In this document: piece by piece, positions 3,090 to 20,548 of the stretch
Layout of the letters: the number at the start of each line of letters is the position of its first letter
Numbering within the stretch: the first letter of the stretch is position 1
Virus record (IMG/VR): IMGVR_UViG_3300044611_001004
Span: 1-20,548 of that record
Source of the DNA: a virus
Reading direction: 5' to 3' (one strand)
Length of the DNA: 20,548 nucleotides
Notes under the pieces: generated by a model
Database searches by the model: none
Told to the model about the DNA's origin: nothing
The model's input: only the letters and a program-made list of their open reading frames with translations
Program-made: the position numbers and the translations under genes

Positions 3090-3905
3090 ATGTCAGGTAA
3101 TGTGGGTAAAATGAATGACCCAGATGCAAGTTTATTCATTCAAGTATCTGAAATAACAGGTTCTACTCAACGTGGTGCCATCGTTGACCTTATAAAAGAT
3201 TTGAAATCAAATGGTCTATGGTCAAAGATGAAAGCTATCTATCCGTTCGTTGGTGGAACTGCAAGTACACATAAATGGAATCTAAAAGACCCACGAGATG
3301 TAGATGCTGCATTTAGACTATCGTTTAGTGGTGGGTGGACTCATAGTTCAAACGGTGCTTTACCAAATGGAACTAATGCTTATGCAGATACATTTATGAT
3401 AGCAAATCCAACCATAAGTGAAACATCTAATCATCTATCGTACTACTCAAGAACTATTGGTTCCGGCACCAGTACGGTTAGACAAGATATTGGTGCAGCA
3501 GATAGTCCATCGTATAATTCTAATATACTATTAGCGATTAGGCAAAGTGGAGTTTATTATGCTATAAGTTTTACAAATGCTGCACTTGCTTCTATGATTT
3601 CGAACACTAACGCCGATTCACACGGGTTTTATAACAATTCTAGAACGAGCTCAACTTCTCACAAGGCGTACAAAAATGGTGTTCAAATCGGTTCTACAAA
3701 CACAACCGTCACCAGTGGTTATAGTTCTATGACATCGGCACGAATCTATATTGGTGCAACAAGTGTATCTGGTACAGGTATCAACAATTATAGTGACCGT
3801 GAATGTGCATTTGCAACTATCGGCGACGGACTCACAGACTCAGAAGTATCAACACTCTACACAATAGTCCAAAAATATCAAACAACATTAGGAAGACAAG
3901 TATAA
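3090..3905 (+). CDS. Stand-alone phage fibre C-terminal module
   Basis: 271 residues corresponding to only the second module of the two LamG genes on either side: LWSKMKAIYPFVGGTA near residues 43-58, KWNLKDPRDVDAAFRLSF, GGWTHSS, PNGTNAYADT, and a C-terminus identical to both neighbours. Within it, HKAYKNGVQIGST and SARIYIGA look like the YxNG and IGG strands of LamG-type jelly rolls, so the module may itself be a lectin-like sandwich. There is no LamG domain ahead of it; the N-terminus MSGNVGKMNDPDASLF matches the linker of the gene at 3931 (DPDASLF). A GGGG run at 3080-3083 could serve as ribosome site. Role inferred: exchangeable fibre tip or adhesin. Confidence 0.82.
   Translation: MSGNVGKMNDPDASLFIQVSEITGSTQRGAIVDLIKDLKSNGLWSKMKAIYPFVGGTASTHKWNLKDPRDVDAAFRLSFSGGWTHSSNGALPNGTNAYADTFMIANPTISETSNHLSYYSRTIGSGTSTVRQDIGAADSPSYNSNILLAIRQSGVYYAISFTNAALASMISNTNADSHGFYNNSRTSSTSHKAYKNGVQIGSTNTTVTSGYSSMTSARIYIGATSVSGTGINNYSDRECAFATIGDGLTDSEVSTLYTIVQKYQTTLGRQV
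3855..3903 (+). repeat. 49-bp identical gene-end repeat, copy 2 of 3
   Basis: Identical at every base to 2513-2561 and 5431-5479. It covers the 3' end of the stand-alone module gene and stops just before its stop codon is complete. Confidence 0.93.
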
Positions 3906-3970
3906 TGTCTAACAACTCGGAGTATAAGGAATGGCAACAGGAACAACACAGACGATTACAAATGGGCTGA
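3905..3970 (+). CDS. Possible 21-residue leader ORF or gene remnant
   Basis: The ATG overlaps the upstream stop (TAATG), as at 1025, and encodes MSNNSEYKEWQQEQHRRLQM plus G before a TGA. It runs into the first codons of the LamG gene at 3931 in another frame. The composition is charged and protein-like rather than random, so it may be the relic of an N-terminus displaced by insertion of the LamG cassette, or a leader that carries ribosomes to 3931. It may equally be chance. Confidence 0.2.
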   Translation: MSNNSEYKEWQQEQHRRLQMG

Positions 3971-5481
3971 TATTTTATGTAGATGCCGCTAATGTAAAGT
4001 CATATCCTGGTAGTGGAACAACATGGACTGACTTGAGTTCTACTGCAATAACCGGTAGTTTGACGAATGGGCCAACATTCAATTCTGCAAACGGTGGTAG
4101 TGTAGTTTTTGATGGAACAAATGACCATATTACTTTTGGAAATAATTTGAATTTTGAGATTACATCACCATTTACAGTTTCGACTTGGTTTAGAACAACA
4201 CGAACAGGTGAGTTCGTTGGTGTTATTGCCGGTAAAAATAAACTACAAGTTTCTCCAGCAGATTATACCGGTTATTCGATTGGTATGAATGTTGTTTCTG
4301 GCTCATCAACTAATGCTGGAAAATTTGGAGTAGTTTTTGTATCCTCTCCATTTGTGGGACTATCAAATGTAATGCGAATTCAAACGTCGGCGTCATATAA
4401 TGACGGGAACTGGACGAACGGTGTTATTACATACAATGGAAGTGGTAATAGAAGTGGAATGACCATATACATAAATGGTACTTCTCCTGCAACTGAAAGT
4501 TATGATAGTAACAGTATATCAGGAACTATGATAACAACTGCTAGTTTTCAATTAGGTGCTCGCGACGGCACACAACAACCATTTTCTGGTAGTATTGGTC
4601 AAGTATCGGTATTCAACCGTGCCCTATCCTCTGATGAAGTCCTGCAAAACTACGAATCAACTCGTGAACGATTTAATTTGAGGGGAATTGCCATAGACCC
4701 AGATGCTTCTCTTTTCTTACGAACTGCCGGTATAACAGACACCTCACAACAATCGGCGATAGACACCCTCGTATTAGAACTGAAAAATGCCGGTATATGG
4801 TCAAAGATGAAAGCTATTTATCCGTTCGTTGGTGGAACGGCAGCAACTCACAAATGGAATCTAAAAGACCCAAGAGATTTAGATGCTGCATTTAGATTGA
4901 CATTTAGTGGCGGTTGGACTCATAGTTCAACAGGTGCAGACCCGAATGGTACAAATGCCTATGCTAACACTAATTTAATCCCAAACAACGTAATATCTTC
5001 TAATCTTTCAATGCACATTAGTTATTATTCTCGTCAGAATAGCACGGGTGTAGAAGTTGAAATAGGATCAGGGGACTACGTTGCACCAAATGATGAGCAA
5101 CGGCGTTCTTTTATTGAAGCTAATACTTCAGGAACTTCGTATTGGACAGTAAATGGTAATAACCCATCTGATTTTTTTTCAACTTCAGATACTGATGCTG
5201 CTGCATTTTACATAGCATCAAGAACGTCAAGCACAGTTATGGCAGCTTTTCGCAATAATAGCAAAAGCGGAACCGCAACTAAAGCCGCTGGGAATTTATC
5301 GCAAAATTCTATATATATTGGTGCATATAATAGGCCACAATTCGGATCACAGCAAGCATCATATTTTTCTACAAAGCAAACTGCTTTTGCCACCATCGGC
5401 GACGGCCTCACCGATGCCGAAGCTACCAACCTCTACACAATAGTCCAAAAATATCAAACAACATTAGGAAGACAAGTATAA
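3931..5481 (+). CDS. LamG-like plus phage fibre C-terminal module protein (copy 2)
   Basis: 516 residues with the same two-part design as the gene at 1025. Residues about 10-245 are LamG-like (FYVDAANVKSYPGSGTTWTDL-type start, VFDGTNDHITFG, FTVSTWFRT, MTIYINGTS, FQLGARDG, VSVFNRALSSDEVLQNY). Residues about 255-516 are the C-terminal module (DPDASLF, WSKMKAIYPFVGGTA, KWNLKDPRDLDAAFRLTF, GGWTHSSTGADPNGTNAYA, and the shared end). The middle of the module, roughly residues 350-490, is the part most different from its paralogues, which suits a variable ligand-binding face. GGAG at 3919-3922 lies eight bases from the ATG and supports this start. Probable host-surface binding or fibre-tip protein; the ligand is unknown. 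Confidence 0.85.
   Translation: MATGTTQTITNGLIFYVDAANVKSYPGSGTTWTDLSSTAITGSLTNGPTFNSANGGSVVFDGTNDHITFGNNLNFEITSPFTVSTWFRTTRTGEFVGVIAGKNKLQVSPADYTGYSIGMNVVSGSSTNAGKFGVVFVSSPFVGLSNVMRIQTSASYNDGNWTNGVITYNGSGNRSGMTIYINGTSPATESYDSNSISGTMITTASFQLGARDGTQQPFSGSIGQVSVFNRALSSDEVLQNYESTRERFNLRGIAIDPDASLFLRTAGITDTSQQSAIDTLVLELKNAGIWSKMKAIYPFVGGTAATHKWNLKDPRDLDAAFRLTFSGGWTHSSTGADPNGTNAYANTNLIPNNVISSNLSMHISYYSRQNSTGVEVEIGSGDYVAPNDEQRRSFIEANTSGTSYWTVNGNNPSDFFSTSDTDAAAFYIASRTSSTVMAAFRNNSKSGTATKAAGNLSQNSIYIGAYNRPQFGSQQASYFSTKQTAFATIGDGLTDAEATNLYTIVQKYQTTLGRQV
5431..5479 (+). repeat. 49-bp identical gene-end repeat, copy 3 of 3
   Basis: Identical at every base to 2513-2561 and 3855-3903. Copies 2 and 3 both continue into TAA, while copy 1 runs into ATGA of the next gene. 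Confidence 0.93.
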
Positions 5482-5562: not shown

Positions 5563-7359
5563 ATGCCATCGGAATTTATCATCAAGAATGGTTTCTTCTC
5601 ACAAGGAAACTCAAACGTCACCGGTTCATTTAATGTTACCGCCGGAATAACAGGTTCCCTCTTTGGAACTTCATCATGGGCATCTAATTCTGTAACTGCT
5701 TCTTATGCTGTAACCGCTTCTTATGTTTTAAGTGGTGGAAGTGGTACATCTGGTACAAGTGGTACATCTGGGTCTTCGGGAACATCAGGGACATCTGGTT
5801 CATCAGGAACTTCAGGAACATCTGGGTCTTCGGGGACATCGGGTACATCAGGTTCGTCTGGAACTTCAGGTTCATCAGGAGCCAACGGTTCTTCAGGAAC
5901 TTCAGGTTCTTCAGGAACATCAGGTTCATCGGGAACATCAGGAACATCGGGAACATCTGGAGCCAACGGTTCTTCAGGAACTTCAGGTTCTTCAGGAACA
6001 TCAGGTTCATCGGGAACATCTGGAGCCAATGGTTCATCAGGAACATCTGGAGCCAACGGTTCTTCAGGAACATCAGGACAAACTGGTTCATCAGGAACAT
6101 CTGGAGCCAACGGTTCTTCAGGAACATCTGGAGCCAACGGTTCTTCAGGAACATCAGGAACATCAGGTTCTTCAGGAACATCAGGACAAACTGGTTCATC
6201 GGGAACATCCGGAACATCAGGTACATCCGGAACATCAGGTTCATCAGGAACTTCAGGTTCTTCTGGAACTTCTGGTTCATCGGGGACTTCGGGAACATCA
6301 GGTTCATCAGGAACATCTGGTTCTTCGGGAACTTCGGGAACTTCGGGAACATCTGGTTCTTCGGGAACTTCGGGAACTTCGGGAAGTTCGGGTACATCTG
6401 GTTCTTCAGGAACATCTGGTTTAAGTGGTGTAGTAACTGGATTTACAAGTTCATTAGAAACGACTAGTCCAAATAATACAGTTTTTGCTTCTAGATTACT
6501 TGCTAGCGGTTCTGCAACAAATATTGATGTTGTTATCCAACCAAAAGGTTCAGGTGCTATTCTTGGACAACTTCCCGATTCAACTACAACAGGTGGAAAT
6601 AAACGTGGACAAAATGCTGTTGATTTAGGAACTACAAGAATAAATGCAGCTGATGTTGCAAGTGGTAATAACTCTATACTCATAGGTTCATTCAACCGAG
6701 CATCTGCATTAGGTGCTGTTGCTATTGGATATGGTGTATATGCAACAGGACAAACGAGTATTGCACTTGGAAACGGTAGTATCGTTACTGCAACCAATGC
6801 TGTTTCATTGGGAGTAAATAATAGAAACGAAGGAGTTGGTGCAACAACAATAGGATATTATGTTTCTGCATCAAATAATGGATATTACTCACTCGTAGGT
6901 GGAAACCGTGCAAAAGGTGATATACCGTATTCACGTATTTGGTCTGGTGGTAGATTTTCTACTGATGGGGACAATCAAGAATATCAAACACAATTTTATA
7001 TAACTACATATACAAATACAAAAACCGAATTATTTGTAGACGGGGATTTTGTGTCTACTAGATTTTCACTTTCTTCCCCTGCAACATATGCCTTCACAGG
7101 TATGGTAGTTGCCAGAAGAACTGATGCAGATGGAGAATCTGCGATGTGGAGAGTTAGTGGTCTTATTTCAAATGATAGTGGAACTGCATATATCGTTGGT
7201 TCACCACTTATAGAAAGTATAGCCGATACATCTGGTGGTGCATGGGATGTTTCGATAGAAATTTCTAACTTTTCTAATTTTGGATTATATGTAACTGGTC
7301 AAACTAGTAAGACAATACGATGGTCGTCTACTATAACGTTTATGAAAATATCGGAGTAA
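5563..7359 (+). CDS. Trimeric tail fibre: collagen-like stalk, YadA-like repeats, C-terminal tip
   Basis: 598 residues, complete. Residues 1-60 are an N-terminal segment with GSLFGTSSWASNSVTASYA and the ASYAVTASY pattern common in phage fibres, probably virion attachment. Residues 61-288 are 76 unbroken Gly-X-Y triplets, mostly GTS and GSS with GAN, GQT and a final GLS, without proline. Residues about 367-445 hold repeats of the YadA/trimeric autotransporter head type (SILIGSFNRASALGAVAIGY, then YATGQTSIALGNGS and similar). Residues about 465-598 are a tip domain with VVARRTDADGESAMWRVSG and VTGQTSKTIRWSSTI that is shared with the gene at 7624. All parts favour trimers, so a trimeric receptor-binding fibre is the best reading. 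A weak AGGG lies 12 bases from the ATG. Long open frames in other frames here are repeat shadows. Confidence 0.88.
   Translation: MPSEFIIKNGFFSQGNSNVTGSFNVTAGITGSLFGTSSWASNSVTASYAVTASYVLSGGSGTSGTSGTSGSSGTSGTSGSSGTSGTSGSSGTSGTSGSSGTSGSSGANGSSGTSGSSGTSGSSGTSGTSGTSGANGSSGTSGSSGTSGSSGTSGANGSSGTSGANGSSGTSGQTGSSGTSGANGSSGTSGANGSSGTSGTSGSSGTSGQTGSSGTSGTSGTSGTSGSSGTSGSSGTSGSSGTSGTSGSSGTSGSSGTSGTSGTSGSSGTSGTSGSSGTSGSSGTSGLSGVVTGFTSSLETTSPNNTVFASRLLASGSATNIDVVIQPKGSGAILGQLPDSTTTGGNKRGQNAVDLGTTRINAADVASGNNSILIGSFNRASALGAVAIGYGVYATGQTSIALGNGSIVTATNAVSLGVNNRNEGVGATTIGYYVSASNNGYYSLVGGNRAKGDIPYSRIWSGGRFSTDGDNQEYQTQFYITTYTNTKTELFVDGDFVSTRFSLSSPATYAFTGMVVARRTDADGESAMWRVSGLISNDSGTAYIVGSPLIESIADTSGGAWDVSIEISNFSNFGLYVTGQTSKTIRWSSTITFMKISE
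5743..6426 (+). repeat. Gly-X-Y (collagen-like) coding repeat, copy B
   Basis: 684 bp encoding 76 consecutive Gly-X-Y triplets with a 9-bp period, and no interruption. Codons alternate between a few near-identical 9-mers (ggaacatca, ggttcatca, ggttcttca), so replication slippage could change stalk length by whole triplets. Confidence 0.93.
5878..6020 (+). repeat. Exact 62-bp direct repeat, period 81 bp
   Basis: Bases 5878-5939 and 5959-6020 are identical and offset by 81 bp (nine Gly-X-Y triplets). Both begin at a GAN triplet, which appears to mark the duplicated unit. Confidence 0.9.
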
Positions 7360-8932: not shown

Positions 8933-11900
8933 ATGCCGTTTATAAAAAACATAGTAACACAGGTATCGAGAAGTTATACACCATACATTCCACCTCAATA
9001 TACACTTTGGGGTTGGGGTGATGGTACATTCGGTCAAACGGATAATAGTATATTGACATATGTTCCATATCAAATTGATTCAGAAACAACATGGGTGAGT
9101 GGAAGTGCTGGTACTACAAATACATTTGCTATAAAATCAAATGGAACTCTTTGGGGTTGGGGAGCAAACGCAAACGGCGAACTTGGTCTTCGTGATATAG
9201 TATCTCGATCATCACCTGTTCAAATAGGAACTGATAGTAATTGGTTAAATATTTCCGGAGGTGGCTCACACACAATTGCTTTAAAAACTAACGGAACATT
9301 ATGGACATGGGGCTATAATCTGTATGGTCAACTTGGTAACGGAACAATTATTAATAGGTCATCGCCTGTCCAAATCGGTACTTTAACAGATTGGTTATCT
9401 GTTTCAGCTGGAAATCTTAATACTCTTGCAATTAAAACAGACGGAACTCTTTGGGGGTGGGGATATAATGCGGACGGACAACTTGGACAAAATAATACAA
9501 TAAGTAGAAGTTCACCCGTTCAAATTGGAACACTTACAAATTGGTTTAAAATATCAGCTGGTGCCTCACACATCATGGCAATAGACACCAGCGGTTCACT
9601 CTATGGTTGGGGTCTAAATACATCAGGTGAACTCGGTAACGAACCAATAACACCAACGAGATTGAATATAGACACTTGGTCTGATACCGACGCTGGTTAT
9701 TCTTATACAATGGGTATTAAATCAGATGGTACTCTGTGGAGTTGGGGTAATGATACAAATGGAGAATCTGGTATAAGATTATTTTACTCACTTCCAAGAC
9801 TAATTGATAATAACACAAATTGGGCAACCGCAAGTGGTCCAAGTCGTCATATGCTTGCTATAAAAACTAATGGAACTCTTTGGGCTTGGGGTGAAAATAC
9901 ATTCGGTCAAATAGGTGACATAACAACAATATCTAGAAGTTCACCTGTTCAAATAGGAACTTTGACAAATTGGTCAAAAGTAGCAATAGGTGGTTCTCAC
10001 TCAATGGCTATCAAAACAGATGGTACTTTGTGGGGATGGGGATGGAATTCAACATATGGACAACTTGGAGACGGAACATCTGTGAATAAGTCATCACCAG
10101 TTCAAATAGGAACCAGAACTGGTTGGTATGATATTAGTTGCGGAGTCGCTCACACAATAGCAACTAGAACCGACGGAACGTTATGGGGATGGGGGTATAA
10201 CAGTGCTGCTGGTAATGTGGGGGATGGAACTACTATAAACAGAAATTCTCCTGTTCAAATTGGAACACTTACCAACTGGCTAAAAGTATCAGCGACCAAT
10301 GGTTCAACTTCTATGGCTATAAAAACAGATGGAACTCTATGGGGTTGGGGTGCAAACGGGTCTGGACAACTTGGAGACGGAACAACTGTATCAAGAAGTT
10401 CTCCTGTTCAAATTGGAACTTTAACAAATTGGGCAATAATCAATCAATCAAGAGATAGTTCATATGCGATTAAAACAGATGGAACTCTTTGGGCTTGGGG
10501 TTCAAATTCAACCGGACTATTAGGATTGAATGACACTATAAGTAGAAGTTCACCTGTTCAAGTCGGCACATTAACAAATTGGGCATCCATGTCAGCATAC
10601 GGAAGCACACTTGCGATAAAAACTGATGGAACCCTTTGGTATATTGGAGGTGGTACTTATTCTGTAACTGATGGTGCTATCATTACACGTTCTTCTCCTG
10701 TGCAAATAAGTACACTAACAAACTGGGCATCTTTACCATCAAGTGTAGCTGCAATAAATACAAGTGGAAATCTTTATGTTTGGGGCGATAATGCACTTGG
10801 TCAATTAGGAACAAATAATTTAATAGGTACAAATATAACAGTATGGTCATCACCTGTTCAGATAGGAACTGATACAAATTGGTCAAAAATATCAGCAGCT
10901 AACGCCTTCACAATAGGAAGAAGAACCGATGGAACCCTTTGGTCATGGGGTATTAATACCACTGGTCAACTTGGATTGGGTAATATATCGTCTAGATGGT
11001 CTCCAACACAAATTGGAACAGGAACTGATTGGACATCTAATTTTAGTTCATATAATTCTCACTCAATGGCAATAAAAACAGATGGAACTTTATGGGGTTG
11101 GGGTAGTAATACAAATGGTGAATTAGGTCAAACCAATGTTATACCAAGATCATCACCTGTTCAAGTAGGTACACTTACAAATTGGTCAAGGGTATCGACT
11201 GGTGGTAATCATACACTTGCAATAAAAACCGACGGTACTCTATGGGCATGGGGTTCAAATTCAACATTTGCTCAAATTGGAGATGGTACTGCCATAAATA
11301 GAAGCTCTCCGGTACAGATAGGTACTTTAACAAATTGGTCAAAAGTTTCTGCTGGTGAGAACCACTCTATAGCTATTAAAACAGATGGTACAATTTGGGG
11401 TTGGGGTAATGATTCAAATGGACAACTTGGAATACGACCATTACAATTAACACAAATTGATAATAATTTAAATTGGTCTGTAATATCAAGTACATCACAA
11501 ACCATGGCTATAAAAACAGATGGTACACTTTGGGCTTGGGGTGGTAATGCATTTGGTTTATTAGGGTTAAATAATACAATCAATAGAAGTTCACCTGTTC
11601 AAGTCGGAACACTAAATAATTGGTCAAATGTATCGACTGGGTTTTCTTCTACAATGGCAATAAAAACAGATGGTACAATTTGGGGTTGGGGTAGAAACTC
11701 AAATGGAGAAATTGGAGTAAACAACACAACATCATATTCATCACCTATACAAATAGGAACTCTATCAGATTGGTATTCCATATCAGCTGGAAGTATACAT
11801 ACGACTGCAATAAAGACAAATAATACAATATGGTCATGGGGTAACAATGGCTCTGGGCAACTCGGACAAAATAATGTAACAAGTAGAAGTTCACCTGTTC

Positions 11901-14900
11901 AAATAGGAACACTAAATAATTGGTCAATTGCATCCTCTGGTGCTACTCACACAATATCAGTAAAAACGGATGGGACGCTTTGGGGGTGGGGTATAAATGC
12001 TTCTGGACAACTTGGAGACGGTACTGTTGTGAATAGAAGTTCACCCGTTCAAATCGGAACTCTTACAAATTGGTCAAAAGTATCGGCTGGTGGAAGTAAT
12101 AGTATGGCTATTAAAACCGACGGAACTTTATGGGGTTGGGGTGTAAATACATATGGTGAGATTGGTGATAATTCTGGATTCGCAAGAAGCTCGCCGGTTC
12201 AAATAGGAAGTTTAACGGATTGGTTGAATGTATTTGTTGGTACAAGTTCAACATTTGCTATAAAGACCAATGGAACTTTATGGTCATGGGGATACAATAT
12301 AAATGGGGGTTTGGGTACAGAATCAATAATTAATAGAAGCTCGCCTGTACAAATTGGAACTTTAACAAATTGGACATATGCCGGTGTAAATTTACTATTT
12401 AATTCAGCTATTGTAGCCGGAGGCAATGGATTATATGCAACTGGTGAAAATGGATTAGGACAATTAGGTCTAAACTCAACTATAGGTGGCGGAGATTCGT
12501 TACAACTTTCTCCTGTTCAAATCGGTACTCTGACCACTTGGTCTGATGTATGGGCTACAATCAATCGTACCTATGCTACAAAAACCGATGGAACACTTTG
12601 GGGATGGGGTGTTGCAACAAACTATCTCGGTGATACACTTGCCTCAAATGTAGGATTTGGTACATTTCCAACTGCACCAACAACTCGTTACTCTCCTGTC
12701 CAAATAGGAACAAAAACAAATTGGTTTGAAATTGGTCGTGGACAAAACCATATCATCGGTTTAAAATCGGATGGTTCTATGTTAGGTTGGGGTTTGAATG
12801 CACAAGGTCAATTGGGTCTAAACTTTATAGGCTCAAGAACCACACGTTCCTCACCAGTTCAAATTGGCGATGATAGATTCTGGTCGGAAGTTTCTGCTGG
12901 CGCTAACCATACACTTGCTGTAAAAAATGACGGTACACTTTGGGCTTGGGGAAATAGTGGTGGCGGTCGTATTGGTGACGGTCAAGTTATCAGTCGTAGT
13001 TATCCTGTTCAAATCGGCACCCTTACGTCATGGTCAAAAGTAAACTCAAACATAGACCATTCTGTTGCTATAACCACCTCTGGAAATCTTTGGGGTTGGG
13101 GAACAAATACAACAGGTAAACTTGGTGATGGTACAATTGTATCAAGAAGTTCACCTGTTCAATTACCGGGTTCAAATTGGAAAGATGTAAACGGAATCGG
13201 TTCACATTCAATCGGTGTATCTACCGGTGGTAATCTTTACACATGGGGATTACAAACGTCAGGTCAACTCGGATATACGATGCAACGTTCATCACCGGTA
13301 CAAATTGGAACTTTAACGAATTGGTCAAATATTGATACCGGTGCTTTAGGAATGCATGCACTGGGTATTAAAACAAATGGTACTCTGTGGGGATGGGGTG
13401 CAAATAACGCCGGACAAATTGGTGATAATACTGTTGTTTTTAGAAGTTCACCTGTACAAATTGGTACACTCACAAACTGGTCGCAAGTAAGTCTTTCTCA
13501 TTCACATACAATATCTTTGAAAACAGATAACACAATTTGGACTTGGGGTGCAAATGATAGAGGTCAACTTGGCCAGGGTGATATAATTAATAGAAGTTCT
13601 CCTGTTCAAATAGGAACAGATGCAAATTGGGCAAAAATTTCTGCCGGTGGTGGTGATGGGGCAATGATAACAATGGCTATAAAGACAAATGGATCTTTGT
13701 GGGCTTGGGGTAATATTACAAGTGGTAAATTAGGAATATATCCAACGGCCCCACGATTAGTTGACTCAGGAACAAATTGGTCAAAAATACCTGCAGAACA
13801 GGCCAGTCAATCCCACACACTTTCTATAAAGACAGATGGAACTCTATGGGTATGGGGTTTAAACGGATCAGGACAACTTGGTGACAATACAGTTGTATCA
13901 AAATCATCACCTGTTCAAATAGGAACTCTTACAAATTGGTCTAAAATTGCAGGAGGACAAGCTCACACACTCTCCGTAAAAACCGACGATACTTTATGGG
14001 GATGGGGACTCAATACGTCAGGACAACTTGGAGACGGTACTGTTGTGAATACAAGTTCACCCGTTCAAATAGGAACACTCACAAATTGGTCAAAGATTTC
14101 TGCCGGTTCATCTTATTCTATGGCTATAAAAACTGACGGCACATTATGGGGATGGGGATGGAATACATCTGGTCAACTTGGTGATGGAACTTTTATAAGC
14201 AGAAGTTCACCCGTTCAAATTGGAACTCTTACAAATTGGTCAATAATTTCCGGCGGCGCAACTCATACATCAGCAATAAAAACAGATGGTACATTATGGG
14301 CATGGGGATTAGGAACGAGTGGGCAGTTGGGAGACGGAACTGTTGTTAGTAAAAATTCTCCAGTTCAAATCGGAACTCTGACCAATTGGTCGAATGTTTC
14401 ATGTGGTGTTTCACACACAATCGCAATCAAAACGGACGGAACTCTTTGGGGATTGGGCACAAACGGATCAGGACAACTTGGACAAAATAATATAATCAAT
14501 CGAAGTTCACCCGTTCAAATCGGAACTCTTACAAATTGGTCAAAAGTATCGGCCGGTTCTGACTATTCTATGGCGATAAAAACCGATGGAACTCTATGGG
14601 GATGGGGACTGAATTCAAGTGCTCAATTGGGTGACGGAACCACTGTTTCAAAATCATCTCCCGTCCAGATTGGAACTCTTACAAATTGGTCGAATGTTTC
14701 ATCTGGTTTTTCATACACTATTGCTATTACAACTACCGGTAATTTGTATGGATTTGGTAGAAATTCTCAAGGTCAACTTGGTTTTAATAATACAATAGAC
14801 TCGTCTACCGCAAGCGTATTAACACCCGTTCTTGTACAACCTGATTTAAATTGGTCAGAATTATCACTTGGTGGAGACCACGGTGTGGCCACAAAAACAA

Positions 14901-15358
14901 CAGGAACACTTTGGGCTTGGGGTACAAACACCGCCGGTCAAATCGGTGATGGTACGGTAACAACACGTTCCTCTCCAATTCAAATCGGTACACTTACAAA
15001 CTGGTCAAAGGTTTCTGCTGGTGTTTCACATACAATGGCAATCAAAACAGATGGAACACTTTGGGCATGGGGACTTAATACATTTCGTCAATTGGGAGAT
15101 GGTACAATCATCAATAGATCATCACCTGTTCAAATTGGAACACTTACAGACTGGGTATCTGTTTATTCTGGATACTTATTCACAACTGCAATTCGTGGAA
15201 ACGGCACACTTTGGGCATGGGGAAGAAATGCAGAAGGTCAACTTGGTAACCCAACAAGTTTACTTCCTAGTTCTGTGCCAGTACAAATCGGTACATACTC
15301 TAAGTGGATTAAATCATGTTCTAGTATATCGCATACCATAGCTATTCGTCAAGAATAA
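8933..15358 (+). CDS. Giant RCC1-repeat beta-propeller protein
   Basis: 2141 residues. A short 23-residue N-terminus is followed by 42 RCC1-type repeats of about 50 residues to the very end. The consensus is TLWGWG-x-N-x-x-GQLGDGT...RSSPVQIGTLTNW-x-KVSAG-x-xHT-x-AIKTDG. RCC1 repeats fold as blades of seven-bladed propellers, so 42 repeats could make six. No signal peptide, membrane helix, coiled coil or enzyme motif is visible. Repeats 5, 6, 17 and 32 lack the SSPVQIG strand pattern; 12 is short (TLWYIGGGTY); 13, 24, 25, 26 and 39 carry loop insertions. RCC1 itself is a eukaryotic nucleotide-exchange factor for Ran, but RCC1-type repeats are used widely as binding scaffolds, so a virion surface or receptor-binding role is more likely here. 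The only good ribosome site, AGGAGG at 8911-8916, is 16 bases from the ATG, suggesting coupling to the upstream gene. Confidence 0.9.
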   Translation: MPFIKNIVTQVSRSYTPYIPPQYTLWGWGDGTFGQTDNSILTYVPYQIDSETTWVSGSAGTTNTFAIKSNGTLWGWGANANGELGLRDIVSRSSPVQIGTDSNWLNISGGGSHTIALKTNGTLWTWGYNLYGQLGNGTIINRSSPVQIGTLTDWLSVSAGNLNTLAIKTDGTLWGWGYNADGQLGQNNTISRSSPVQIGTLTNWFKISAGASHIMAIDTSGSLYGWGLNTSGELGNEPITPTRLNIDTWSDTDAGYSYTMGIKSDGTLWSWGNDTNGESGIRLFYSLPRLIDNNTNWATASGPSRHMLAIKTNGTLWAWGENTFGQIGDITTISRSSPVQIGTLTNWSKVAIGGSHSMAIKTDGTLWGWGWNSTYGQLGDGTSVNKSSPVQIGTRTGWYDISCGVAHTIATRTDGTLWGWGYNSAAGNVGDGTTINRNSPVQIGTLTNWLKVSATNGSTSMAIKTDGTLWGWGANGSGQLGDGTTVSRSSPVQIGTLTNWAIINQSRDSSYAIKTDGTLWAWGSNSTGLLGLNDTISRSSPVQVGTLTNWASMSAYGSTLAIKTDGTLWYIGGGTYSVTDGAIITRSSPVQISTLTNWASLPSSVAAINTSGNLYVWGDNALGQLGTNNLIGTNITVWSSPVQIGTDTNWSKISAANAFTIGRRTDGTLWSWGINTTGQLGLGNISSRWSPTQIGTGTDWTSNFSSYNSHSMAIKTDGTLWGWGSNTNGELGQTNVIPRSSPVQVGTLTNWSRVSTGGNHTLAIKTDGTLWAWGSNSTFAQIGDGTAINRSSPVQIGTLTNWSKVSAGENHSIAIKTDGTIWGWGNDSNGQLGIRPLQLTQIDNNLNWSVISSTSQTMAIKTDGTLWAWGGNAFGLLGLNNTINRSSPVQVGTLNNWSNVSTGFSSTMAIKTDGTIWGWGRNSNGEIGVNNTTSYSSPIQIGTLSDWYSISAGSIHTTAIKTNNTIWSWGNNGSGQLGQNNVTSRSSPVQIGTLNNWSIASSGATHTISVKTDGTLWGWGINASGQLGDGTVVNRSSPVQIGTLTNWSKVSAGGSNSMAIKTDGTLWGWGVNTYGEIGDNSGFARSSPVQIGSLTDWLNVFVGTSSTFAIKTNGTLWSWGYNINGGLGTESIINRSSPVQIGTLTNWTYAGVNLLFNSAIVAGGNGLYATGENGLGQLGLNSTIGGGDSLQLSPVQIGTLTTWSDVWATINRTYATKTDGTLWGWGVATNYLGDTLASNVGFGTFPTAPTTRYSPVQIGTKTNWFEIGRGQNHIIGLKSDGSMLGWGLNAQGQLGLNFIGSRTTRSSPVQIGDDRFWSEVSAGANHTLAVKNDGTLWAWGNSGGGRIGDGQVISRSYPVQIGTLTSWSKVNSNIDHSVAITTSGNLWGWGTNTTGKLGDGTIVSRSSPVQLPGSNWKDVNGIGSHSIGVSTGGNLYTWGLQTSGQLGYTMQRSSPVQIGTLTNWSNIDTGALGMHALGIKTNGTLWGWGANNAGQIGDNTVVFRSSPVQIGTLTNWSQVSLSHSHTISLKTDNTIWTWGANDRGQLGQGDIINRSSPVQIGTDANWAKISAGGGDGAMITMAIKTNGSLWAWGNITSGKLGIYPTAPRLVDSGTNWSKIPAEQASQSHTLSIKTDGTLWVWGLNGSGQLGDNTVVSKSSPVQIGTLTNWSKIAGGQAHTLSVKTDDTLWGWGLNTSGQLGDGTVVNTSSPVQIGTLTNWSKISAGSSYSMAIKTDGTLWGWGWNTSGQLGDGTFISRSSPVQIGTLTNWSIISGGATHTSAIKTDGTLWAWGLGTSGQLGDGTVVSKNSPVQIGTLTNWSNVSCGVSHTIAIKTDGTLWGLGTNGSGQLGQNNIINRSSPVQIGTLTNWSKVSAGSDYSMAIKTDGTLWGWGLNSSAQLGDGTTVSKSSPVQIGTLTNWSNVSSGFSYTIAITTTGNLYGFGRNSQGQLGFNNTIDSSTASVLTPVLVQPDLNWSELSLGGDHGVATKTTGTLWAWGTNTAGQIGDGTVTTRSSPIQIGTLTNWSKVSAGVSHTMAIKTDGTLWAWGLNTFRQLGDGTIINRSSPVQIGTLTDWVSVYSGYLFTTAIRGNGTLWAWGRNAEGQLGNPTSLLPSSVPVQIGTYSKWIKSCSSISHTIAIRQE
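9002..15355 (+). repeat. 42 tandem RCC1 coding repeats, about 150 bp each
   Basis: The 42 units were counted by their TLWGWG-type start, beginning at residue 24 and ending at the stop codon with no partial unit left over. Mean unit length is 50.4 residues. Most repeats differ at silent sites, but some share longer exact DNA, for example 31 bp at 12005-12035 and 14021-14051. Confidence 0.9.
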
Positions 15359-15417: not shown

Positions 15418-15453
15418 CAAAAAAGTTACGTTTAATAAAAGGTTATGTATCAT

Positions 15454-16482
15454 ATGAAGAACCGAGCAGACAAAATAGAACCGGGTCAAATGCACCCACT
15501 TGATATTGCACTTCAAGCTTCAATCAACGGACATCCTGAAATTAGTGAGGATATTCTACGTTCCCAACCACAAGATGACCTACGGGTTCTTTTTAATCTT
15601 GGTTGGCACGAAATGAGACACGGTAATCTCAAAAAGGCAATGGAACATTTTAACTACGGTCGGTATATCGATGTATTTGGATTACCACCACTTCCAGGAA
15701 AAATTTGGAAGGATGAGCCACTTGAAGGAAAAACACTTCTTTTCAGATGTGAAGGTGGTTACGGAGACCAAATTCTTAACTTCCGTTTTGCAAAAAATTT
15801 CGAAGAAAAAGGAGCAAGGGTTCTTGTTTCTTGTGCACCAGAACTAAAAGAATTATTTTCTCGTCACGGGTATATTTGTATTGATAATGAAGTTGCACTC
15901 GGTGCTCATTATGACTATTGGGTTCCAGCTATGTCAGCTGCATTTATCTTGGACATGGAATATGAAGACCTTGATGGTTCACCGTTCTTAAAACCAAAAG
16001 AACGAAGAACACTTTTCGCAAAGAAAGGTTCTTTAAAGGTTGGTGTTCGTTGGTCGGGTAGTCCTGATTTTGAAGATGAACAACATCGCCGTTTCCCACC
16101 TGAATTAATGATTGGACTCCACGATATTCCAAACACAACATTTTATTCACTTCAACGTGATGAAAATCTAATTGATGGTCTACCGTTCGGAGACATGAGA
16201 GAACAGATGAAGTCGTGGGATGATACCGCAAACATTATGGCAGACTGTGACATTATTATTAGTTCGTGTACCGCGACTGCACACCTTGCAGCAGCAATGG
16301 GTAAACCAACTTGGGTTCTAACTCCAATTATGCCTTATTATACATGGGCAGTTCCTGGTGACGGTTCAAGATGGTATGATTCAGTAAAATTATACCGTCA
16401 AGTAAAGTACGGTGAATGGGATGTTCCATTCCAACAGATTAGAGAAGACCTTACAAAGTTAGCTGAAGAACATAAAGGGTAA
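15454..16482 (+). CDS. GT9-like glycosyltransferase with short helical N-terminal region
   Basis: 342 residues from ATG 15454. An ATG nine bases upstream (15445) is only two bases from the AAAAGG ribosome site, so the second ATG is preferred, with 11-base spacing. Residues about 15-70 look like a degenerate TPR pair (LDIALQASINGH, LGWHEMRHGNLKKAMEHFNYG). Then comes a GT-B, GT9/heptosyltransferase-like domain: FRCEGGYGDQILNFRFAKNF at about 97-116 is the usual glycine-rich opening of this family, VGVRWSGSPDF lies mid-protein, and SSCTATAHLAAAMGKPTWVL at about 270-289 is the C-terminal donor-side motif, followed by the WYDSVKLYRQ ending. It probably transfers a sugar in the cytoplasm; substrate and acceptor are unknown. 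Phages carry such enzymes for virion or host-glycan modification. It heads a block with a methyltransferase and a GT-A enzyme. Confidence 0.82.
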   Translation: MKNRADKIEPGQMHPLDIALQASINGHPEISEDILRSQPQDDLRVLFNLGWHEMRHGNLKKAMEHFNYGRYIDVFGLPPLPGKIWKDEPLEGKTLLFRCEGGYGDQILNFRFAKNFEEKGARVLVSCAPELKELFSRHGYICIDNEVALGAHYDYWVPAMSAAFILDMEYEDLDGSPFLKPKERRTLFAKKGSLKVGVRWSGSPDFEDEQHRRFPPELMIGLHDIPNTTFYSLQRDENLIDGLPFGDMREQMKSWDDTANIMADCDIIISSCTATAHLAAAMGKPTWVLTPIMPYYTWAVPGDGSRWYDSVKLYRQVKYGEWDVPFQQIREDLTKLAEEHKG

Positions 16483-16487
16483 TCCGT

Positions 16488-17108
16488 ATGTCATACTTGA
16501 AGGAAGCTTTTTATCCTAAAAGTTTAGAACACGCAAAGGATATTTGCCTTACTCCAGATGGTCGAGTACCGCAAAAGTTTACAAAAGAAACGATGTTTCT
16601 ATTAGACTTTCTATTAAAAGAAAATCTGGCGAACAATTACTCAAAGGTTGCAGATTTTGGTTGTGGTGTTGGTCGTATGAGTAAAGCACTCATACAACGA
16701 CTTGGCTGTCCCGTGACGGGGTTTGATATTAGTGAACCTATGTTGGGTTGGGCAAACGAATTTGTGTTAAGTAGAATATTTACACCCGTGGTATATTCGA
16801 AAGGATTTGTACCGACGGAAGATATGAAATACGACCTTGTTATGGCTTTGTTTGTATTACAACACAGTGAACATCCAATCCAAGATATTGAGTTTATCCA
16901 TTCGATTCTGAACAAAGGTGGTAAGTTTGTTTTGATGAACGAAGAAAAGAGATTTGTTCCGAGTGGTATTGACGAAACTCGTAATATCATTTGGAATGAC
17001 GATGGTATCAATATCGAAGAAGAAGTGAGTAAGAAATTCAAGTTTATTGGTCGATACGATTACATAAACAGATACGATAAAAAACTGACGGTATGGGAAA
17101 AAGAATGA
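16488..17108 (+). CDS. SAM-dependent class I methyltransferase
   Basis: 206 residues. Motif I is clear: VADFGCGVGRM at residues 54-64 (D56, G58, G60, G62), followed by GFDISEPML at 79-87, whose Asp80 is the usual adenosine-ribose binding acidic residue. VMALFVLQHSEHP then fits motif IV to V, and LNKGGKFVLMNE the strand that follows. The fold is that of small-molecule or sugar methyltransferases rather than DNA methyltransferases: there is no NPPY or DPPY motif. AAAGGG at 16474-16479 lies eight bases from the ATG. Between two glycosyltransferases, methylation of a glycan or a capped sugar is the simplest reading, though the substrate cannot be seen. Its stop overlaps the next start as ATGA. 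Confidence 0.83.
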   Translation: MSYLKEAFYPKSLEHAKDICLTPDGRVPQKFTKETMFLLDFLLKENLANNYSKVADFGCGVGRMSKALIQRLGCPVTGFDISEPMLGWANEFVLSRIFTPVVYSKGFVPTEDMKYDLVMALFVLQHSEHPIQDIEFIHSILNKGGKFVLMNEEKRFVPSGIDETRNIIWNDDGINIEEEVSKKFKFIGRYDYINRYDKKLTVWEKE

Positions 17109-17881
17109 TTAAATTAGATGTAATCTTACGAACCCACGATAAGAGGGAAATTCACGTATCAAAAGACCCACGTTATTGTAAAGCAAATAAAACAACGGTG
17201 GTAAAGAAATGTGTAAAATCTTTGGTAGAAACTTGTAATAATTCGGAACACGATATAACGTATTGGTGGTACGATGACCATTCTTCAGAACAAACGATAG
17301 AAGAACTCCATCAGATTTTCAAAGGGACAAAACATCCTTACAATTTCATACCATTAGAATCTGAAGGTTGGCAAGGAAGTGGTTTGGCTCAATTTGAACG
17401 TGGTAGAGATTCGGATGCTGATTTAGTTTACTTTGTGGAAGATGATTACCTTCACTTTCCGACTGCAATCGATGAGATGGTTGACTCCTATTATAAGTTC
17501 AAAGAAAATTTGGGTAGAGAAATCTCTATTCATCCATTCGATGACCCTGATAATTATTTACCTGTTTGGATAGAACCTTGCCGTATTGTTTATGGTAAAA
17601 ACCGTCATTGGAGAACAAATCTACATACCACGTTCACCTTTCTTTGTAATCCGGAGATAGTTAGAGCCAGATGGCACGTATTTTATACAATGGCAACAGA
17701 GTATGGAACTCTTTGGGGTGAAATGAATCACGTCAATGAATCAACTATGATAAATAAAATATGGAGAGAAGAAGTAACTCTATTCACTCCAATTCCATCG
17801 GTAGCTCTTCACATGGCTTATGAAACACAAAAAGACCCTTACTTAGATTGGAAAGAACTTTGGGATTCGTTTTCTGTCTAA
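17105..17881 (+). CDS. GT-A (GT2-like) glycosyltransferase
   Basis: 258 residues from ATG 17105, which overlaps the upstream stop as ATGA; an in-frame ATG at 17093 would add four residues and is less typical. The start LDVILRTHDK suits the first strand of a GT-A fold, YWWYDDHSSEQT at about 53-64 its second acidic site, and YFVEDDYLHFPTA at about 109-121 has the DxD-like VEDD that binds a metal-sugar nucleotide. The C-terminal half has W, H and Y-rich motifs (KNRHWRTNLHTTFTF, GEMNHVNESTMINK) that are not diagnostic. No membrane helix is seen, so it is a soluble cytoplasmic enzyme. Likely partner of the other two genes in one glycan-building or glycan-modifying pathway. Confidence 0.75.
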   Translation: MIKLDVILRTHDKREIHVSKDPRYCKANKTTVVKKCVKSLVETCNNSEHDITYWWYDDHSSEQTIEELHQIFKGTKHPYNFIPLESEGWQGSGLAQFERGRDSDADLVYFVEDDYLHFPTAIDEMVDSYYKFKENLGREISIHPFDDPDNYLPVWIEPCRIVYGKNRHWRTNLHTTFTFLCNPEIVRARWHVFYTMATEYGTLWGEMNHVNESTMINKIWREEVTLFTPIPSVALHMAYETQKDPYLDWKELWDSFSV

Positions 17882-17917: not shown

Positions 17918-18427
17918 ATGAGATACGTGTATGTCCAAGATGGACAAGTAATAGAAGGTCCGGTGATGTTACCAATAAATTGGAAGAATATTTCCAACTT
18001 TAAAGTATTGGACAATGATACTCTTAAATTATATGGTTGGTATCCCCATCGTTTTGTTGAAGCAACTTTAGGTGAAAACGATAAAGTAACCGGTTCTTAT
18101 TTTGTAATAGAAGAAACCGAAGTAGTTGAGTATCAAACTGTTGCAACAAAAACAGAATCGGAAATACAAGATTTAATCAACCAGAAATGGATTAACATTC
18201 GTGCTCAACGAGCAATTTATCTTCAAGAATGTGATTGGACACAACTTTCAGATGTACCAATGTCAGATGAAAAGAAATTAGAATGGACAACATACCGTCA
18301 GGCATTACGTGATATAACAAATTATGAATCACCTGATATGGTAATATGGCCTGAAAAACCATCTATGGATGACCCAACATATAGATTAATAACACCACCA
18401 GATGAGAACGGAGTGATAAATGAGTAA
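17918..18427 (+). CDS. Phage tail assembly chaperone-like protein
   Basis: 169 residues. GGAG at 17909-17912 is five bases from the ATG. The N-terminal 70 residues (YVQDGQVIEGPVMLPINWKN, KLYGWYPHRFVEATLGENDK) look like the small beta domain found in fibre-assembly or fibre-associated proteins. Residues about 85-147 match the pattern I know for the tail assembly chaperone family Phage_tail_APC: WINIRAQRAIYLQECDWTQL, then PMSDEKKLEWTTYRQALRDI and VIWPEKP. Such proteins help fold or place fibre or tail components and may not stay in the virion. Position after the fibre locus agrees with that. Its last eight bases overlap the next gene's start. Confidence 0.83.
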   Translation: MRYVYVQDGQVIEGPVMLPINWKNISNFKVLDNDTLKLYGWYPHRFVEATLGENDKVTGSYFVIEETEVVEYQTVATKTESEIQDLINQKWINIRAQRAIYLQECDWTQLSDVPMSDEKKLEWTTYRQALRDITNYESPDMVIWPEKPSMDDPTYRLITPPDENGVINE

Positions 18428-20548
18428 ACTCGTCGAAAGTATATTAAAAGAAATAAGACTTCAAATTTTTAATGAAGATAATTCTGATAAAGGAAATCTT
18501 GTTGCCGTATATCCTGGTCGTTTTCAACCAATGGGAGTCCATCACAAAGATTCATATATTTGGTTAAGAAAACAATTTGGAACAGAAAACACATATATTG
18601 TAACTTCTAATAAAGTAGATGGTCAAAAGTCACCGTTCACATTTAGTGAAAAGAAAAGAATAATGTTAAAGCACGGTGTACCAGAAAGTCAAATAATAGA
18701 AGTAACAAATCCATATAGTCCACTTCAATTCTTTGAAAAATCGGGTCTCGATCCAAAAGAAACTACTATTGTTTATATGATTGGTGAAAAGGATAAGGGA
18801 AGACTCCGTGGTTTCAAACGACTTATGGTATTTAATAAAACCACATATGTTCCAGCAAAAGATTTAGATGACCCATACACCTACTATGTGTATGCACCAC
18901 ACGTATCATATAACATACCATCGGCGGGAGAAATGTCAGGAACAAATATTCGTAAGGCACTCGGAGACCAAACAGCAAAATTATCCGAATTAAAACATCG
19001 ATTTAAACAAATTTTTGGTTGGTTTGATGCTGGTATTTTTAACATGGTTATTGGTAAACTCAATGCAAAACGTGGTAAACTAAAAGAAGACTTGAATGAA
19101 TGGTTTCGAGTTCTTTTAAATATGTCAGAAGAACAAAGTATGATGTTCTTCGATATTCTTAAAAAGGAATATGGTGATACAAAGGATTTGCTTCCAATAT
19201 TACAAAAGTTTATTAAAACAGGACAAATAACAGACCGTGAAAAGGTATTATTTAGAAATCAAATGAAAGACCTTTTAAAGTTAACTGGACTTGGAGCAAT
19301 AGCAGCGATTCCAATTCCAGGAACTATGTTAATGATTCCGATAATAATCCAACTTGCTAAAAAATTCAAAATAAATCTTCTCCCAGAAAATACAGAACCC
19401 GAAAAAGAAAGACTTGATATTGTTCGTAGAGAATTTTGGAATGAAGTATTTACAGAAGTTGCCAAAGATGATAGACCACTTATTACAGAAGGTGGTGCTG
19501 CTGGACACATGGCTCATCCATTTGAAGATTTTGGTCTTACATTTGGTGACATGAAAGAAATGTTTAGACTTGGATTGTCTGGTGAAATTACTGTTAAAGG
19601 AAATCCAACTGAAAAATTAGACGGTCAAAATCTTTTTGCTTCATTTAGAGAAGGTAAACTATATGCTGCCAGAAATAAATCAGACATCAAAAATGGTGGA
19701 ATGGACTATCAGACAATTAAGACAAAGTTTAGTGGTCGTGGTGCTATTGAAGAGGCATTTACAATTGCTTTCTCTGATTTGGAAAAATCAATTCAACAAC
19801 TTACTCCAAAACAGCAAGAGAAAATTTTTCAAGGTGGTAAGGCGTGGATGAATCTTGAAGTAATGTACCCAAAAAGTCAAAACATCATAAACTATGACGG
19901 TGCATACATTGTTTTTCACGGTGTTTCTTTGTATAATGATAGTGGTGAAAAGATAGAAGATTTTCCACAATATGCTAGAATTTTAGCTGGTATGATTAAA
20001 CAAGCAAATGCTCATACTCAAAGTACATTTAAAATAAGTGAACCTAAAAGAATAGTAGTTACAAAATCCAAAAAGTTCAACGAAAGATTAGGATATTTCA
20101 TAGGAAAATTAACAGCACTACAAAATAAAATGAAATGTTCTGATACAGATACAATCGGTGTTTGGCATCAAAGATGGTGGAAACGTTACATAAATAAAAG
20201 TCTAAAAGAAAATGGATTGGAGTTGGAAAACTCTATAAAAGATAATTTGGTTAAGAGATGGGCATTTAACGATAAATCTTTTGCACTAAACAGTTCAAAC
20301 ATACCAGATTCAAACGTTTTGAAGTGGGCAAAAGAAATGGATAAAACTAAAGTAGAAGAACAAGTAAAAACCAACGTTCTTCCATTTGAAATTTTGGTCT
20401 TGGAGTTCGGTGCAGAAATTTTGAAGAATGTTCAAAATGTAATGGCTTTAAATCCAACGAATACTACTAACAAAATTCGTAGAGAAGTCGAACTCGCAAT
20501 CAACACACTTTCAAATTCTAATAAATTAGAGGATATATCTACTTTAAA
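18420..20548 (+). CDS. Fused HIGH-type nucleotidyltransferase, LETM1-like and KxDG ligase-like protein (3' end missing)
   Basis: The frame is open from ATG 18420 to the right edge, 709 codons with no stop. GGAG at 18410-18413 is six bases from the ATG. Part one, residues about 25-185: VAVYPGRFQPMGVHH at 29-42 and SGTNIRKAL at 173-181 are the two ends of a NadM/cytidylyltransferase-type HIGH fold. Part two, about 225-330: FRNQMKDLLKLTGLGAIAAI followed by a proline-containing hydrophobic stretch and INLLPEN matches the LETM1-like pattern. Part three, about 350 onward: GGAAGHMAHPFEDFG, then EKLDGQNLF with Lys399 as the likely covalent nucleotidyl-lysine, LEVMYP near Glu480 (motif III-like), and YIVFHGVSLYN near 490-500. 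This suggests an RNA/DNA ligase or capping-type domain. Roles may include nucleotide-cofactor or RNA-end repair chemistry; none is proved. The C-terminus lies beyond the window. Confidence 0.72.
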   Translation, partial: MSKLVESILKEIRLQIFNEDNSDKGNLVAVYPGRFQPMGVHHKDSYIWLRKQFGTENTYIVTSNKVDGQKSPFTFSEKKRIMLKHGVPESQIIEVTNPYSPLQFFEKSGLDPKETTIVYMIGEKDKGRLRGFKRLMVFNKTTYVPAKDLDDPYTYYVYAPHVSYNIPSAGEMSGTNIRKALGDQTAKLSELKHRFKQIFGWFDAGIFNMVIGKLNAKRGKLKEDLNEWFRVLLNMSEEQSMMFFDILKKEYGDTKDLLPILQKFIKTGQITDREKVLFRNQMKDLLKLTGLGAIAAIPIPGTMLMIPIIIQLAKKFKINLLPENTEPEKERLDIVRREFWNEVFTEVAKDDRPLITEGGAAGHMAHPFEDFGLTFGDMKEMFRLGLSGEITVKGNPTEKLDGQNLFASFREGKLYAARNKSDIKNGGMDYQTIKTKFSGRGAIEEAFTIAFSDLEKSIQQLTPKQQEKIFQGGKAWMNLEVMYPKSQNIINYDGAYIVFHGVSLYNDSGEKIEDFPQYARILAGMIKQANAHTQSTFKISEPKRIVVTKSKKFNERLGYFIGKLTALQNKMKCSDTDTIGVWHQRWWKRYINKSLKENGLELENSIKDNLVKRWAFNDKSFALNSSNIPDSNVLKWAKEMDKTKVEEQVKTNVLPFEILVLEFGAEILKNVQNVMALNPTNTTNKIRREVELAINTLSNSNKLEDISTL

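Follow-up and report, generated by a model that had tools for sequence, protein, structure and literature searches.

Why should a phage gene join nucleotidyltransferases of two different chemistries in a single open reading frame? The question is raised by a 20,548-nucleotide stretch of viral DNA (IMG/VR virus record IMGVR_UViG_3300044611_001004, positions 1 to 20,548; hereafter the window), whose last gene runs from position 18420 into the end of the record. Our analysis suggests that this gene probably encodes an RNA-repair polyprotein that is packaged in the head of a T4-type phage and matured there by a protease, although we hold this reading with some reserve. The folds, the catalytic motifs, a junction motif, a repeated targeting-like peptide and a linked protease gene come from computation, and published virion proteomics speak, through a homologue, for the packaging of the transferase family; we infer cleavage, injection, ligase activity and an RNA substrate.

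The frame remains open for 709 codons (18420-20546) and is interrupted by the window end. Three further IMG/VR contigs (L002, L003 and L004, in our labelling of contigs with relatives) carry the full-length gene of 760 residues, with 99.86% identity across the 709 residues shared, and the 51 residues beyond the window contribute the EGIVF and YKLTG motifs. Relatives were collected by scanning IMG/VR twice, which returned 179 and at least 587 stretches encoding them, 80 being retained from each scan. The gene and its modules are as follows.

18420..20548, + strand: predicted polyprotein gene, 709 codons inside the window, truncated at the window end (complete relative, 760 residues)
18495..19073, + strand: HIGH-superfamily nucleotidyltransferase module, residues 26-218, with GRFQPMGVHH and SGTNIR
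19089..19454, + strand: helical module with a single hydrophobic segment, modelled as helical at low confidence
19491..20548, + strand: RNA-ligase-like covalent nucleotidyltransferase module, residue 358 to the window end (L004 shows motifs IV and V, which fall past the window)
19614..19625, + strand: motif I, KLDG, residues 399-402, with Lys399 the predicted nucleotidylation site
19668..19676, + strand: motif Ia, ARN, residues 417-419
19854..19862, + strand: motif III, LEV, residues 479-481, with Glu480
19911..19922, + strand: motif IIIa, VFHG, residues 498-501

An earlier note on this DNA, made from the sequence alone, had described a fused frame at 18420-20548, and the fusion is real, with two nucleotidyltransferase folds in one open frame. 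The motifs that it named are likewise present where it placed them: GRFQP at residues 33-37 (18516-18530), SGTNIR at residues 173-178 (18936-18953), and KLDG, LEV and VFHG as listed above. Its LETM1-like middle segment fared differently, scoring 12.4 bits against Pfam LETM1_RBD (E 0.12), under the cut-off of 25.3; we therefore drop the LETM1 identity and describe this region as a low-confidence helical module. A stand-alone homologue of the helical module, of 144 codons, occurs in L085.

We take the motifs of the C-terminal module to be ligase motifs I, Ia, III, IIIa, IV and V. KxDG is conserved in all 103 distinct relatives, which were picked by a separate motif (GHMxHPFDD and variants), and motifs IV and V are found as EGxV(F/L)...YKxTG in 97 of the 101 distinct relatives with an intact 3' end. 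The other four (L109, L125, L159 and L192), judged by eye, keep the EG and the Lys with slight changes. This conservation indicates that the named motifs are more than chance. An alternative tally of motifs IV and V, 72/72, is true by construction, its rows having been picked by those motifs, and the invariant motif columns of alignments A3 and A4, likewise picked by them, are no evidence. When the C-domain is modelled alone (predicted local distance difference test score (pLDDT) 86.9; predicted template modelling score 0.84), VIA-align retrieves Naegleria RNA ligase (Z 9.1), T4 Rnl1 (8.2), T4 Rnl2 (8.1) and fungal tRNA ligase (8.1); ligases fill rows 1-40, and an unrelated chain first appears at rank 41 with Z 6.4. 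Foldseek with the full-length model places adenylyltransferases on top, with ligases weak. At the level of sequence families, 28 of 44 members weakly match Pfam RNA_ligase (PF09414; best E 0.0032) and every other family is matched by at most five. The two PF09414 scores on display, 14 and 15.3 bits, fall under the curated cut-off of 27, and L004, near-identical to the window, has no PF09414 match at E 1. As modelled, the C-terminal module is a covalent-nucleotidyltransferase fold closest to RNA ligases, and would act as a ligase. The earlier note had proposed a domain of the ligase or capping type, a proposal borne out by the fold match, which RNA ligases lead (Z 8-9), and by the conservation of KxDG across relatives.

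The same module could be another covalent nucleotidyltransferase (an RNA-capping enzyme, a nucleotide-cofactor enzyme or a protein AMPylator) that is packaged in the virion and does not join strands, which we consider unlikely. Ligases and capping enzymes have the six motifs in common, the models of the module show a long helical insertion that separates motif IIIa from motif IV, the module has no recognised ligase C-terminal domain, and its partner is a HIGH transferase, all of which would suit such an enzyme. However, RNA ligases head the fold list, RNA_ligase is the one recurrent Pfam family, and the kinase and tRNA nucleotidyltransferase partners described below suit end repair.

The transferase module (residues 26-219 as modelled) is closest in fold to the nicotinamide mononucleotide (NMN) adenylyltransferase/Nudix protein 2r5w, with Z 11.9 over 157 residues. 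Phosphopantetheine adenylyltransferases reach Z 11.5, within 1 of the top score, so the fold does not single out a substrate. The window transferase also matches PHROG 395 (E 8.7e-6). Its (I/S)SxTxxR-type motif is kept, as SGTNIR in the window and SGTxxR in 45 of 49 distinct copies. The HxGH motif is altered, reading GxHH in the window and in 47 of the 49 copies, AxHH in one (L157) and the canonical form in one (L083); the canonical motif is found in L193-L195 too. These details bear on a further alternative, in which the HIGH domain would be an NMN adenylyltransferase restoring nicotinamide adenine dinucleotide (NAD+) after host NADase defence, with the ligase-like part secondary. The closest fold is compatible with such a NAD-supply module, as is the sequence match of L083 to 2qjt/2r5w (E 0.0008), and phages carry NadM/NadR against NAD+ depletion (PMC9503650). 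The changed HxGH of the window family and the near-equal scores of phosphopantetheine adenylyltransferases nevertheless make it rather improbable.

Among 51 complete distinct open reading frames (ORFs) with the ligase module, the transferase stands before it in 46, after it in two and in the next upstream ORF in two, and is missing from one; L193, with an open 3' end, is a third case of the reversed order. The occurrence of both orders in these sequences suggests a functional partnership of the two modules. Further partner domains were sought in 35 representatives drawn from 56 ORFs. P-loop kinase families were present in eight (Zeta_toxin/AAA_33; PHROG 12810 and 2071; polynucleotide kinase PHROG 505 in two), a tRNA nucleotidyltransferase in one (PHROG 2244, E 1.4e-57) and a ParB-like domain in one. 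The nearest PDB sequence to the kinase of L075 is L-seryl-tRNA(Sec) kinase (E 0.0015), and in L079 the next upstream ORF joins a PAP2 phosphatase to the transferase. The longest frame reaches 1744 residues (L191, 5' end open), and a frame downstream of it resembles a terminase by eye. Two other architectures are recorded here as side observations: the reversed ligase-transferase ORF of L195 lies within a 2.8 Mb metagenome-assembled chromosome labelled candidate division WOR-3, perhaps as a prophage, and the N-terminal halves of the L053 and L144 proteins hold a module with IGKNRDRNY...CYMID/CYVID, possibly an N-terminal-nucleophile hydrolase by its appearance.

The linkers between modules point to how such a chain would be matured. 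The T4 prohead protease gp21 cuts after L/I-X-E (PMC9026906). T4 Alt begins MELITE, and the N-termini of T4 ipII and ipIII read MKTYQEFIAE/A, as checked in their sequences (a slash marks the bond here and below). Of 92 distinct ligase-module junctions, 73 have Glu immediately before GG, 16 have Met and three have Cys. In the 73 E/GG junctions P3 is always Leu (48) or Ile (25), while P2 is free, with seven residues represented. The corresponding features of the window are listed below, with conservation given for the window clade.

18420..18476, + strand: N-terminal peptide MSKLVESILKEIRLQIFNE, proposed capsid-targeting propeptide, helical in the model; [ILV]xE ending at residue 11 in 17/19
19080..19088, + strand: proposed cleavage site LKE/D, residues 221-223, in the linker that joins the transferase to the helical module; 20/20 with [ILV]xE, pLDDT < 50 at 219-225
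19380..19388, + strand: conserved LPE, residues 321-323, bordering the disordered linker that leads to the ligase module; 18/20
19482..19490, + strand: proposed prohead-protease site ITE/GG, residues 355-357, preceding the ligase module; 16/20 with [ILV]xE, LITE/GG in the window

Six [ILV]xE sites of this clade (residues 11, 123, 190, 223, 323 and 357) persist in 80% or more of its rows, and every inter-module linker holds at least one of them. Four of the six lie at pLDDT < 50, for which the binomial chance is 0.002 on the assumption that linkers are not Glu-rich.

Moreover, the peptide itself recurs inside the chains. A position matrix trained on 25 N-terminal peptides and run over 102 distinct proteins gave 37 N-terminal matches among relatives, mostly its own training material, and eight matches exactly at the ligase junction (scores 8.6-23.1) as against seven elsewhere internally (at most 10.4). 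In L131, for example, the junction reads LGQWLANQILLVE/GG and the N-terminus LGNYLAEQILLE. Shuffled copies gave 39 matches per 1.68 million residues. A control ORF set gave 19, of which 11 fall in polyproteins that the selection pattern had missed and the other eight score at most 11.3. Genes that are stand-alone or have the ligase first begin with the junction sequence, as in L084 (MKFLKSYEEFLNENLILE/GG) and L194 (MNKTLLTE/GG). Similar N-terminal peptides, of T4 type, occur on three ORFs of Synechococcus phage S-SM2; those on other ORFs of Microcystis phage Mel-JY01 and of the long contigs are few and weak, so the peptide of the polyprotein is not demonstrated elsewhere in the same phages.

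A candidate enzyme for these sites is encoded nearby. The gp21-family S77 protease (PF03420) was found in 18 of 26 contigs chosen by length (5/6 and 13/20), always 5.8-10.1 kb downstream of the polyprotein gene, and these 18 are every contig that extends 12 kb or more beyond the gene. The eight contigs in which it was not found reach at most 9.8 kb past the gene, and six of these stop less than 4 kb from it. On the L003 contig, whose gene is 99.9% identical to that of the window, the protease lies 10.05 kb downstream; the window record ends earlier. In Mel-JY01 the gene, which encodes a 639-residue form, lies upstream of the terminase, prohead protease and capsid genes, and the capsid protein of this phage and its homologues in five of the contigs carry a candidate QLI[DS]E/[SA] site. 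Mel-JY01 also has a separate gene annotated as RNA ligase. A link to the virion is offered by the cluster T4-GC190, a putative citidylyltransferase reported among the proteins of purified S-SM1 virions (PMC3037559). Its member in S-SM2 (L188, 26762-27988) begins MKSFFQFLSE/A and matches PHROG 395 (E 3.5e-104). It is distinctly unlikely that the product is an ordinary cytoplasmic bifunctional enzyme, with a fusion that serves co-expression and an incidental linker motif: [LI]xE is short and common by chance, the junctions have Cys at three and Met at 16, and transferase and ligase are fused or adjacent in 50 of the 51 complete distinct ORFs, but the N-terminus-trained matrix recurs exactly at the junction, P3 and P1 are conserved while P2 is free, the stand-alone forms in L084 and L194 start with the junction sequence, and the protease is linked in 18/18 contigs with sufficient room.

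The packaged polyprotein that we favour would work as follows. The N-terminal peptide would direct the chain to the prohead core, where the S77 (gp21-type) protease would cut the linkers after L/I-x-E, inside the head, to free the HIGH-type transferase, the hydrophobic helical module and the RNA-ligase-like enzyme. These would enter the host with the DNA and act early, their most likely task being to rejoin RNA of the host or phage, mainly tRNA, that the host's defence RNases have cleaved. The transferase might provide a nucleotide-based cofactor or modify ends. The RNA ligases of phages answer tRNA-cutting defences, and NadM/NadR answer NAD+ loss (PMC9503650, PMC7824862). A role in RNA-end repair, already raised in the earlier note, is plausible on this account. 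The same note envisaged one protein with two nucleotidyltransferase chemistries; both folds are there, but since this is a modular family with prohead-protease-type junctions and targeting-like peptides, the domains are probably separate enzymes after cleavage and not one bifunctional enzyme.

Several observations weigh against this reading. With GxHH in place of HxGH, transferase activity is uncertain. Foldseek matches the C-domain weakly (best E 0.033, to T4 Rnl1, with an unrelated chain at rank 2), and a sequence profile of the C-domain retrieved no ligase from the chains of the PDB, its best match being a leucine-rich-repeat regulator (E 0.048). The 19 of 92 junctions without Glu (16 Met, three Cys) mean that proteolysis at precisely this bond is not a feature of the whole family. 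The N-terminal peptide of the window itself has no match to the matrix, which did match those of its relatives L009 and L037. PF03420 was not found in L017 or L109, whose 8.0 and 9.8 kb of downstream room would be enough for the nearer protease genes. The sole member with a tRNA nucleotidyltransferase (L191, 2-5233, the 1744-residue frame, which also holds transferase and ligase) lies on a contig binned as Flavobacteriales. Finally, the presence of the polyprotein in virions is supported indirectly, by analogy with the homologue cluster T4-GC190, and the likeness to T4-GC190 is demonstrated for the transferase domain only, through PHROG 395.

The junctions without Glu follow a pattern of their own. 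LLLM/GG is encoded in 16/16 Met-type junctions, and the DNA in 14 of these reads AAGGAG, nine bases, ATG, with AAGGGG and AGAGAG in the other two.

Junctions of L051, L057, L060, L063, L076, L116, L143, L146, L151, L152, L154, L155, L156 and L163: AAGGAG nine bases before an in-frame ATG at the ligase-module boundary

Lys-Glu is written AAGGAG in all 14 of these junctions versus 1 of 100 instances elsewhere in the same 16 ORFs (some of which are near-duplicates), where AAG accounts for 26% of Lys codons and GAG for 25% of Glu codons. When in-frame internal ATGs with AAGGAG or AGGAGG 5-11 bases upstream are counted, the Met-type ORFs give 16 of 397, 14 of them the junction, and the Glu-type ORFs 4 of 1538, none at the junction. 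The ligase-first gene of L195 begins M/GG with AAGGAG 8 nt upstream. Met-type junctions do not form a single clade (approximately unbiased test, p 2.4e-38), at least five E/M changes being needed on the tree, which implies several gains, loss or exchange by recombination. In sequence terms, the AAGGAG-ATG arrangement fits an internal start that would free the ligase module, which is possible; it could also be a relic of a former separate gene. Cys-type junctions (LLTC/GG and LLVC/GG, in L026, L029, L034 and L043) are scattered on the tree and have neither Glu nor such an ATG; L034 has a CEECGEKM insert nearby. We tentatively propose, as a possibility short of a probability, that T4-type phages in lake and ocean waters encode, as a polyprotein, an RNA-repair kit that is packed into the virion, its modules each bearing their own targeting and protease signals, and that lineages switch at the same junction between prohead-protease cleavage and an internal AAGGAG and start codon that would give free ligase.

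The proposed polyprotein is likely a variation on the theme of polyvalent proteins and T4 internal proteins, differing in its enzyme pair, its repeated targeting peptide and its likely use of the head protease. Several unrelated enzymatic domains lie in one phage polypeptide near structural genes, as in polyvalent proteins, which are likewise large and multidomain, combine unrelated enzymes and are predicted to accompany the DNA into the host (Iyer et al. 2017, PMC5512222). The ParB-like module is common to both, L083 matching phage proteins whose annotation reads PLxRFG-domain or internal virion protein. Polyvalent proteins are likely processed by zincin-like metallopeptidases (PMC5512222), whereas here the prohead protease would act at repeated targeting peptides, and the portions of that account covered here name no HIGH transferase/ligase pair and state that the 2H domains of polyvalent proteins had not been observed alongside RNA ligases. 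T4 internal proteins and Alt (PMC9026906) resemble the present family in a short N-terminal peptide ending in L/I-x-E and in a head gene cluster with an S77 protease; they are single proteins with end propeptides, in contrast to the several modules and candidate sites per chain seen here. Cyanophage T4-GC190 (PHROG 395) shares the HIGH transferase and the T4-type targeting peptide, but its 408-residue gene stands alone and lacks the ligase module. ATP-dependent RNA ligases, T4 Rnl1 and Rnl2 among them, share the fold and the six motifs; unlike these, the window module has the large helical insert between IIIa and IV, and its aligned parts are 10-14% identical to T4 Rnl1 and Rnl2. The portion of the open-licence PMC literature covered by our search yielded no prohead-protease-processed phage polyprotein with an RNA ligase, which does not establish absence from print.

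If the proposal is correct, phages import ready-made RNA-repair enzymes and could counter tRNA-cutting defences ahead of any phage gene expression. The repeated targeting peptide together with L/I-x-E would then offer a rule for predicting packaged, injected phage proteins and their cut sites, and the protease site and internal start codon at the same bond would form a natural pair for studying how polyproteins originate from separate genes.

Tail genes lie elsewhere in the window, and the gene immediately before the polyprotein gene is one of them.

17918..18427, + strand: tail fibre assembly chaperone gene, preceding the polyprotein gene and overlapping its start (Phage_tail_APC, E 1.4e-15)

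Among the tail genes, positions 8933-15358 encode a 2141-residue protein of repeats (WGWGxNxxGQLGDGT...SSPVQIGTLTNW), which we take from their appearance to be RCC1-like; it is perhaps a host-binding fibre. Long low-complexity SGTSGSSGTSG tracts occupy positions 1-1025 and 5563-7359, and the protein encoded at 5563-7359 has collagen-like and tail-fibre PHROG matches. Three proteins (1025-2563, 3090-3905 and 3931-5481) have a common C-terminal part (FVGGTA..HKWNLKDPRDLDAAFRL...), which matches PHROG 17104 in both proteins scanned, and two of the three have an additional N-terminal domain. Between the tail fibres and the chaperone, positions 15445-17881 show matches to a glycosyltransferase-9 (weak), a methyltransferase (clear) and a glycosyltransferase-2 (weak).

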